A stretch of 42,494 nt of DNA, taken from positions 1-42,494 of the forward strand of contig JAUWYR010000019.1 of the NCBI GenBank assembly GCA_030615745.1, written 5' to 3'. Both the position numbers and the translations under genes were made by a program. Shown in pieces: positions 27,192 to 42,494 of the stretch. The notes under the pieces are model-generated. The model was not told the DNA's origin. It saw only the letters and a list, made by a program, of their open reading frames with translations, and did not search any database. The number at the start of each line of letters is the position of its first letter. The first letter of the stretch is position 1. Source of the DNA: Candidatus Zixiibacteriota bacterium. Lineage in GTDB: Bacteria > Zixibacteria > MSB-5A5 > SM23-73-2.

Positions 27192-27641
27192 TTTTATAAA
27201 ACTCCGATTTTTTCTTTTGATTTTTTAAATTATACAAAAGTTTTACCCCTTAAATGCTTCTTTTTTATCAAATTTATCAAATGCGTTCTTTTTTTGTTCC
27301 TTTCAAAGGGATTTAATAATAACATTATTTTTAATAAAGTCAATCCAAATTTCTCAAATTTTGTTTTATTTTTTATTCTCATCAAAAAAGAAGGAATGCA
27401 AAAACTTGTTTTTGCAAAGAATCGCAATCCATATGGATTGCACTCCAGAAATGTAGGGGAGCCCCTCGTGGGCTCCCGATAGGGAGGGGATGAACCCCTT
27501 CCCCTACATTAAGACAAAAACCGTCTGGGATAAACCCAGACGCTACGAAAAATTTCCCTGTGCTGTCAAAAGTTACCTCCCGACAGGAATATGTGTCAGG
27601 AGGAAACTCCTGACACCACCTAAATTATAGCTATTTTTTTC
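27192..27641. repeat. Palindrome array upstream of the S74 gene
   Basis: No gene is supported. Elements seen: an inverted repeat around GCAATCCATATGGATTGC (27423-27441); a GTAGGGG element (27453-27507); CGTCTGGG-ATAAA-CCCAGACG followed by CTACGA (27520-27546); a CTGTC...GACAG segment (27562-27586) that recurs at 31714-31744; and GTGTCAGGAG/CTCCTGACAC (27593-27616). Confidence 0.75.
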
Positions 27642-30505: not shown

Positions 30506-31019
30506 GAATCTGTTGGAGATAGAAAGTAGGTCGAAATTCCAATTTCGACAAAATAAATATCGATTTTGGAAAATCGACCTACGAGCTTGTAAACGTAGGG
30601 GAGTCCCTCGCGGGCTCCCAAAGGACGGGAGGGGACCCCGATAAATCGGGATTTCGCCAGGCTCAACAACCCCCTCCCCTACAACACGCGTAGCAGAGCC
30701 TTTATGGCTCTGTGCGGAGGGATAAACCCTCCCTGGCCGGGCAGGCCGCTACGCGGAGATAAATGTAGCGTCGGGCTTTATGCCCGACGAATTAAACCGT
30801 CTGGGATAAACCCAGACGCTACGAAAAGATTTTAAATAGGAGGTTTAAAGATGAGCAAAAGTAAGATTATCAAATCCAAATGTGGTGGACAGGTCCCCTG
30901 ACCTGTCCACATAAGTTGCTTTCTTATGTTGGTGCAGGAATTGTCTCAAGATCCGTTCCGGGGATTTCCTGCACCGAAACTATGGTTGGGGAATTCCAAT
31001 TCCCCAACCAACACGAAGG
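30506..31019. repeat. Dense palindrome array between the S74 and dockerin genes
   Basis: In order: GTAGGTCGA/TCGACCTAC enclosing two hairpins (30525-30582); GTAGGGG element (30595-30682); CGCGTAGC/GCTACGCG enclosing AGAGCC-TTTAT-GGCTCT, GGAGGG-ATAAA-CCCTCC and CCTGGCCGGGCAGG (30687-30755); GTAGCGTC/GACGCTAC enclosing two hairpins (30765-30822); a truncated gene start (30838-30901); GGTC-CCCT-GACC hairpin (30881-30911); GTTGGTGCAGGAA element (30928-30975); and GGTTGGGGAATT/AATTCCCCAACC (30985-31010). Confidence 0.8.
30851..30901 (+). pseudogene. Orphan gene start MSKSKIIK, cut by a palindrome element
   Basis: AGGAGG (30838-30843) and ATG at 30851 start MSKSKIIK, the same eight residues that open the dockerin protein at 31033. 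The frame then enters a palindrome element and stops at TGA 30901 after 16 codons. Synonymous codons differ from the intact copy, so it is an old remnant of a related gene rather than a fresh duplicate. Confidence 0.5.
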
Positions 31020-31032
31020 AGGTGTTTAAAAA

Positions 31033-31503
31033 ATGAGTAAATCAAAAATCATTAAATTGTTAGTGTTCTTCTGTGTGGTTTCAGTTTCTGTTCCCTTAAT
31101 CTTTTATACCAATTCACAGGCTCAGAACTTCAAACTGGTCACCGATGTCTTGGATGAGTTCGGAGGAAGGGCAGGCTCAGCCAATTATTCATTGAGAATC
31201 TCAACCGGTGGTCAGTCATCTGCTGGTGGGAAGATGGAAAGTGACAGCTTTCAGGCTGGTTCTGGATATGTGGAATCTGCCTGGGTCTGGCATGGTGATA
31301 CAAACGGAAATGGGAAAATCAACCTTGGTGATGTGATCTACTTAGCCAACTATCTCATGAAGGGAGGACCGCCACCCCGACCTATGGAGGCAGGTGCTGT
31401 CAATGACATCACTACTGTTTGTGATAACATCATAAATTTGGCTGACATCATCTATTTAGCCAACTACCTTATCAAAGCTGGTCCACCACCGTGTAACTTA
31501 TAG
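31033..31503 (+). CDS. Secreted dockerin-domain protein
   Basis: This 156-residue protein has a signal peptide (1-31, ending SQAQ). A segment ANYSLRISTGGQSSAGGKM resembles the middle of the sorting-domain protein at 528-1103. A type I dockerin follows (about 88-148) with two calcium-loop/helix units, DTNGNGKINLGDVIYLANYL and CDNIINLADIIYLANYLIK. The second loop lacks the full set of Asp/Asn calcium ligands. Dockerins usually bind cohesins in cell-surface complexes; no cohesin is in the window. Ribosome site AGGAGGTG lies 10 bases before the ATG. Confidence 0.85.
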   Translation: MSKSKIIKLLVFFCVVSVSVPLIFYTNSQAQNFKLVTDVLDEFGGRAGSANYSLRISTGGQSSAGGKMESDSFQAGSGYVESAWVWHGDTNGNGKINLGDVIYLANYLMKGGPPPRPMEAGAVNDITTVCDNIINLADIIYLANYLIKAGPPPCNL

Positions 31504-31941
31504 ATAATACCAGTAGCGGCGGGCTATACGCCCGACGATAAAAAGGAGTGCGAAAACTTGTTTTTGCAAAGAATTGCAACAATAAATTTCGTTGGTGCAG
31601 GAATTGTCTCAAGACCCGTTCCGGGGATTTCCTGCACCTAAACTACGGTTGGGGAATTCCAATTCCCCGACCAACAGGGTCTGGGATGAACCCAGACTAC
31701 ACAAAAACTTCTTTGTGCTGTCTGGGGAGTTACCTCTCGACAGCGATTAAAAAGGCAAAAACCGTCTGGGATGAACCCAGACGCTACGAGTAAAATGCAG
31801 AAAAATCTAATAATTTGCCGAATTACAAATTCGGCAACAACCAAAAATGCACTTTGTCTAACAAACCCTGTTGAAAAAATAAAAAAACCCCCCCGCTAAA
31901 GGTGGGAGGGGACACCCCCTTCCCAGATAGATAAAAATATT
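31504..31941. repeat. Palindrome array after the dockerin gene
   Basis: Contains GTAGCGGCGGGC...GCCCGACGA (31513-31538), a GTTGGTGCAGGAA element (31591-31638), GGTTGGGGAATT/AATTCCCCGACC (31646-31673), GTCTGGG-ATGAA-CCCAGAC twice (31678-31696 and 31763-31783), a CTGTC...GACAG segment (31714-31744) and GCCGAATT/AATTCGGC (31818-31837). CCCCCCGCT...GGTGGGAGGGG at 31889-31912 may act as terminator between the convergent genes. Confidence 0.75.
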
Positions 31942-36554: not shown

Positions 36555-36843
36555 CTTATTATCCTGTAGGGGCAGACCTTTCCGCCAGAGGCGGATCTGC
36601 CTACGGCATGACAGGTCTGCCAGGACAGGTTTAAAAACCTGTCCCTACATCGGCTCTGGAGTGCAATCCACGTGGATTGCCCGTTGGTCAAGGGTGCCCT
36701 CACCCTTGACCTTATTCAGAGTGCAATCCATATGGATTGCAAGCGTCCCGCCAAAGGCGGGACCGCACTCCAATGGTTAGGGAATTCCCCCGCTCTTCAG
36801 CGGGATCTTTACGACAATTCCCGAACCAACTCCAAAGGAAAGA
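36555..36843. repeat. Palindrome array inside the rhamnose operon
   Basis: 36565-36649 is bounded by TGTAGGG/CCCTACA and holds CCGCC-AGA-GGCGG and GGACAGGTTT/AAACCTGTCC. GTGCAATCCA palindromes occur at 36660-36681 and 36720-36742, with GGTCAAGGGTG/CACCCTTGACC between (36687-36712). GGTCCCGCC/GGCGGGACC-type pairing follows near 36745-36763. 36775-36830 is a minus-strand copy of the GTTGGT...GGAATTGTC element. No gene is seen. Confidence 0.75.
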
Positions 36844-42049: not shown

Positions 42050-42494
42050 AAACCTGCTCAAAAAAGACCAAAAAGGCTCATCTTAGAAAAGAGTCGATTT
42101 TGGTCAGAAATGACTCAAATGAGAAAATCGACCTACTAAAAATGCTAAATAAGGTCAAGGCTGAGGGCACCCTTTACTAACGAGCGTAGCGGCCGGCTTT
42201 ATGCCCGCGAAATAAAACGTCTGGGATAAACCCAGACGCTACATCTTGGTGGGATAATTCTTGTCGGGTCTGGGGACCCGACAGGCACAATCATAGTCTT
42301 TCGTGCCCTAAATGTGGTGGACAGGTCCCCTGACCTATCCACAAAAATCACTCAAAAGGAGTGCGAAAACTTGTTTTCGCTTGCTAAAAATGTAGGGACA
42401 GGTTTTTAAACCTGTCCAAGACAGACCTGAAGGTCTCCTCTCGTTGGTGCAGGAATTGTCGTCAAGACCCGTTCCGGGGATTTCCTGCACCGAA
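42050..42494. repeat. Palindrome array at the right end
   Basis: Contains TCGATTTT...AAAATCGACCTAC (42093-42136, a looser form of 30525-30582), GTAGCG...CGCTAC enclosing two hairpins (42186-42242), GTCGGGTC-TGGG-GACCCGAC (42254-42275), GGTC-CCCT-GACC hairpin (42313-42343), GTGCGAAAACTTG (42361-42373), a TGTAGGGACAGGTTT half element (42392-42420) and a GTTGGTGCAGGAA element (42443-42491). No gene is seen. Confidence 0.75.

Follow-up and report, generated by a model that had tools for sequence, protein, structure and literature searches.

An inverted pair of GTAG-headed hairpins in a Zixiibacteriota genome is very probably a REPIN

Introduction

GTAG-headed REPs are best known from Proteobacteria. 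Their dimers with GTAG outside are termed HH, and heterodimers with unlike stems are known (Di Nocera 2013, PMC3733652). For REPINs, the doublet has been proposed as the replicating unit and singlets as its remnants, and alternative 'clover' and long-hairpin folds have already been discussed (Bertels and Rainey 2011, PMC3116915). Inverted REPs lie on either side of RAYT genes (PMC2817692), which have been described as vertically inherited (PMC8049555). REPs can persist without REPtrons, RAYT has been lost in some E. coli strains (PMC3733652), and E. coli genomes without RAYT exist (PMC8049555).

Here we analyze a doublet at positions 30765-30822 of a 42,494-nt contig of Candidatus Zixiibacteriota (the window). 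As in REPINs (PMC3116915), we find an inverted REP pair, fixed spacing, compensatory changes, probable singlet remnants, association with RAYTs and alternative folds. The differences from REPINs are an 8-nt linker, compared with 71 bp between the 16-mers of the SBW25 GI doublet; a low copy number (28 units), with no cognate RAYT found in the same genome; and the host, a MAG that shares its order with Zixibacteria RBG_16_43_9. With the GTAG-tagged REP superfamily (PMC3733652), the family shares an unpaired GTAG at one end, an 8-bp stem, a short loop, complementary stem changes among subfamilies, HH dimers of unlike stems and REPtrons with RAYTs, whereas its TTTAT or TTCAT loop and CGTC-NGGN stem differ from the general description of that superfamily, for which 24 family consensuses are published. 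E. coli REPs and BIMEs with TnpA_REP (PMC8266576; PDB 4er8) also combine GTAG with a hairpin and occur as inverted pairs, and one RAYT of the present genome is a sequence relative of that enzyme; however, a stem bulge is required there, while the stems here are perfect, as in the group 3 REPs of the same study. The Smal2 REP of Stenotrophomonas, GGTAGCGCCGGGCCATGCCCGGCG (PMC2817692, Table 1), is likewise a GTAGCG-headed perfect palindrome beside a RAYT, but its loop is shorter and its stem different.

Results

Direct reading of the sequence confirms the palindromic double hairpin that a first-pass annotation had placed at 30765-30822. The sequence is GTAGCGTCGGGCTTTATGCCCGACG-AATTAAAC-CGTCTGGGATAAACCCAGACGCTAC (unit, linker, unit), that is, two inverted 25-nt units with their GTAG ends outward, each consisting of GTAG and then an 8-bp stem with a 5-nt loop (TTTAT or TTCAT). 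The two loops of that annotation, TTTAT and ATAAA, are both present, but they are one loop on opposite strands rather than two. The window contains 6 occurrences of the octamer GTAGCGTC, compared with 0.18 expected, a count reached in 0 of 100 shuffles. The doublet and the other copies in the window are as follows.

30765-30789, + strand: left REP unit, GTAG plus stem CGTCGGGC/GCCCGACG, loop TTTAT
30790-30797, no strand: linker AATTAAAC, 8 nt, between the two REP units of the doublet
30798-30822, - strand: right REP unit, read on the - strand as GTAG plus stem CGTCTGGG/CCCAGACG, loop TTTAT
42186-42209, + strand: decayed left REP unit of a second doublet, GTAGCGGCCGGCTTTATGCCCGCG, stem broken
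42218-42242, - strand: intact right REP unit of the second doublet, from hairpin and pattern match
27522-27546, - strand: REP singlet, perfect hairpin, from fold and pattern match
31513-31537, + strand: degenerate REP singlet, one stem mismatch, loop TATAC
31763-31787, - strand: REP singlet, perfect hairpin, loop TTCAT, from fold and pattern match
31680-31701 (about), - strand: truncated variant unit GTCTGGGATGAACCCAGACTAC, read directly on the - strand as GTAG-TCTGGG-TTCAT-CCCAGA-C

As single-stranded DNA, the 30765-30822 doublet has a predicted folding energy of -20.5 kcal/mol (z -7.9; 0 of 200 shuffles). DNA energies favor one hairpin per unit, with neither GTAG end paired, whereas RNA energies favor a three-way junction closed by GTAGC/GCTAC. 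The three-way junction initially proposed for the extruded element is therefore one of two plausible states, and not the one that DNA energies prefer.

The second copy reported at 42186-42242 does exist, but it is not complete, its left half having decayed. Among the reported half copies, those at 27520-27546 and 31763-31790 turn out to be perfect single units, with hairpin z-scores of -5.6 and -6.8 for the two, but the one at 31513-31538 is degenerate. The window contains no tRNA, and known structured RNA was rejected, there being no match to an Rfam family in the window.

The window also holds mixed arrays of further hairpin families with GTAG, GTTG, GTGG or GGAG heads (27400-27620, 30520-31020, 31540-31850, 36640-36710 and 42300-42494); examples are GTGGTGGACAGGT, GTTGGTTGGGGAATT, GTAGGTCGAAATT and GGAGTGCGAAAAC. 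Some of these hairpins resemble REPs that flank RAYTs in a same-genus genome (G001) or an order-level relative (G004), while their own genome has three RAYTs only.

We searched the whole genome (2.28 Mb, 74 contigs, 98.55% complete) with a pattern that left two stem pairs free to vary. At up to 2 mismatches there were 28 units, and 0 with a reversed-pattern control. Both free pairs were complementary in 18 of 18 exact-pattern units of this genome, where 25% is expected by chance; order-level relatives gave 23/24 for one pair and 21/24 for the other, and named genomes gave 132/138 and 127/138. Four intact doublets have an exact 33-nt offset between unit starts, and 42186-42242 is a decayed fifth. 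Both here and in other phyla, close neighbors are mostly convergent doublets with linkers mainly of 4-14 nt; in other phyla their offsets are mostly 29-39 nt. Only 2 of the 28 unit centers lie within ORFs of at least 150 codons, although such ORFs make up 67% of those loci. The units thus display the features of REPs, namely a conserved 5' GTAG with a palindromic hairpin, complementary stem changes and a mostly extragenic location, together with the inverted doublets at fixed short spacing that characterize REPINs and BIMEs. The common boundary and further copies that a discrete unit called for are likewise present: copies occur genome-wide, with an exact GTAG...CTAC edge and the 33-nt offset in the four intact doublets.

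Of 23 units in this genome, 95% have C or T immediately before GTAG, compared with about 81% of 212 units elsewhere. This pyrimidine (for example, at 27522-27546) is possibly a trace of the cutting site.

Exact units number 10-47 in each of four order-level relatives (G002, G004, G006 and G008), and the pattern was found also in MAGs labelled Nitrospirota, Bipolaricaulota, Deltaproteobacteria, Neomarinimicrobiota and Planctomycetota. Closer by, the same-genus genome G001 has no exact unit, and a relaxed pattern also found none in the 1.62 Mb of it that was searched. The unit at 31763 is also absent from a roughly collinear array in G001. An aligned site lacking the element was obtained for the doublet on contig C53 only (locus L026), which has no counterpart at the orthologous G001 site, in an intergenic alignment too diverged for base-exact boundaries; two further loci (L024 and L028) gave no convincing alignment. 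Within L026 of the window's own genome (G000), the doublet at 1501-1595 is about 95 bp long and its second unit carries a 36-nt hairpin-forming insert in the TTTAT loop, apparently one repeat inserted inside another.

Three intact RAYTs are encoded in the genome, with NCBIfam REP_Tyr_transpos scores of 145, 103 and 128 bits (cut-off 80), and one of them (L001) matches the TnpA_REP crystal structure 4er8 (E=3e-27). Each adjoins its own GTAG- or GTTG-headed hairpins, GTAGGTCAGGAGC at L001, GTAGGTCAAGT at L003 and both GTTGTTGCTGCATT and GTTGGTGCTGGATT at L002, none of which is the 30765 family. Weak Y1_Tnp matches at two other loci (L004 and L005) fell below the cut-off with no REP flank seen, and we took them as chance.

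The family does adjoin a RAYT in a Zixibacteria relative (G008, matching Zixibacteria RBG_16_43_9), where the gene at L206 has GTAGCGTCGGGCTTTACGCCCGACG on both sides and GTAGCGTCGGGGTTCATCCCCGACG also downstream. No L206-like RAYT was found in the window's genome, the best match having 30% identity, so the units there appear to be orphaned, provided that no assembly gap hides the gene. A same-genome cognate is a usual feature of REPINs and BIMEs, not a required one.

A RAYT search inside the unit-bearing loci of other genomes found none next to the family. Searching whole genomes of REP-bearing MAGs from other phyla with the L206 RAYT revealed four more RAYTs that adjoin it: L382 (Bipolaricaulis), with one flank visible only because the contig ends soon after the gene, L383 (Acetothermia), L385 (Nitrospirae) and L399 (Deltaproteobacteria), whose family hairpins have the stem CGTTGGGG. 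A cognate RAYT flanked by the same REPs is thus found in five other genomes. The family lies within 160 bp of 5 of 99 distinct RAYT-like ORFs, and all 5 are among the 19 closest to L206, compared with 0 among the other 80. With L206 left out, the ratio is 4/18 vs 0/80 (p ~ 0.0009, hypergeometric), for a cut at 19 that was chosen after the list was seen. These four RAYTs come from genomes selected for REP presence; the less similar RAYTs of those genomes serve as an internal control, and none has the family.

The RAYT closest to L206 (L264 on G009:C59, 50% identity) is flanked by near variants of the family with another loop, among them GTAGCGTCGGGGCTTGTCCCCGACG and GTAGCGTCGCAACTC, which suggests that loop and enzyme may evolve together. 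At 1480-2010 of L387, a Nitrospiria RAYT gene looks broken by a copy of its own flanking REP (GTAGGGACCGTTCCCCGAACGGTCC at 1852).

Could the doublets have arisen by a route other than RAYT-type mobilization? Small size, terminal inverted repeats and discrete length would suit a classical MITE moved by a DDE transposase. Such an element should leave a target-site duplication of fixed length, and a comparison of flanks had been suggested from the outset. Among 35 doublets, target duplications were not in excess over shuffled flanks (26 with none vs 23.5 expected). In addition, half units occur singly as perfect hairpins, and the family adjoins HUH-tyrosine RAYTs, enzymes for which a missing target-duplication signal is expected. 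We therefore rejected the MITE reading, to which we give next to no credence. Another route, in which copies arise chiefly through segmental duplication and inter-array recombination with no transposition, has support at some loci. A 190-bp stretch around the C17:39900 doublet, which is equal in length to the 30765 doublet, matches window 30686-30875 at 92%, and the gene downstream of the C17 doublet matches window 31027-31571 at 87%; given these shared flanks and gene, the 30765 and C17 doublets represent a single insertion that was copied along with a gene pair. The doublets on C23 and C73 have 107 bp in common at 91%. Segmental duplication, not separate transposition, accounts for both of these pairs. 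However, the other doublets among those tested for target duplications lie in unrelated surroundings with their edges at GTAG/CTAC, and members of the family accompany cognate RAYTs in several phyla, so that duplication as the main source is highly improbable.

Alternatively, the hairpins may be RNA elements (terminators, attenuators or stabilizers of mRNA 3' ends) under selection in the transcript rather than mobile DNA. Stable hairpins with covarying stems, nearly all intergenic, would be expected of such elements, and RNA roles have been proposed for REPs (PMC3733652). Yet a conserved, unpaired GTAG outside the stem is not needed for RNA stability, the doublets are inverted with a fixed offset, in several phyla these hairpins stand next to RAYT genes that resemble one another, and the window has no Rfam match. 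Selection as RNA is thus a very unlikely origin, but the hairpins may have a secondary RNA role.

Set against its paralogue on C17 (L008), the window contains an additional REP array, roughly 150 bp long, at 30851-31060, where the start of the gene is duplicated (ATGAGCAAAAGTAAG at 30851 and ATGAGTAAATCAAAA at 31033).

Discussion

We conclude that the element at 30765-30822 is, with high confidence, a REPIN: two inverted REPs with GTAG outside, which Di Nocera would call an HH heterodimer, forming a minimal BIME of the kind mobilized by RAYTs. We accept membership because the testable defining features are present, apart from the same-genome RAYT. The discrete mobile unit suggested by the first-pass annotation is consequently supported as a known kind of element, the REP doublet, REPIN or BIME, with mobility itself a matter of inference. 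The family most probably arose as mobile DNA and belongs to an ordinary category; its single units are most probably what remains of former doublets.

By analogy with the E. coli, Stenotrophomonas and Pseudomonas literature, we infer single-strand recognition and movement. Exposed as a single strand, as may happen on the lagging-strand template, the two halves would each fold into a hairpin with GTAG left unpaired. The enzyme would be a RAYT (TnpA_REP), one of the HUH single-tyrosine transposases and a relative of the IS200/IS605 enzymes; it would bind GTAG and the hairpin, nick beside them and transfer the strand. As a result, the doublet would be copied or moved as a unit without target duplication. 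Any present-day movement, like the cutting of single strands by a RAYT, is presumed on the same analogy. The family was presumably spread in this genome by a now-missing RAYT of the L206 kind, leaving a population that is now orphaned.

What is new here is the family and its host; the REP/REPIN category is already known. Both family and host are apparently undescribed; a literature search combining Zixibacteria, REP and transposase returned nothing relevant.

The same hairpin design stands beside similar RAYTs in four phylum-level groups: Zixibacteria, Bipolaricaulota/Acetothermia, Nitrospirota and Deltaproteobacteria. A tentative and rather unlikely reading is that one REP-RAYT pairing (GTAGCGTY hairpin, TTYAY loop, L206-like RAYTs) spread between distant phyla, with REP populations outliving the enzyme and possibly being served in trans by the RAYT of another cognate REP. 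Many REP families and only three RAYTs give the genome the look of an archive of earlier REP-RAYT occupations. The natural REP variants across the four groups provide material for testing how a RAYT reads its hairpin.
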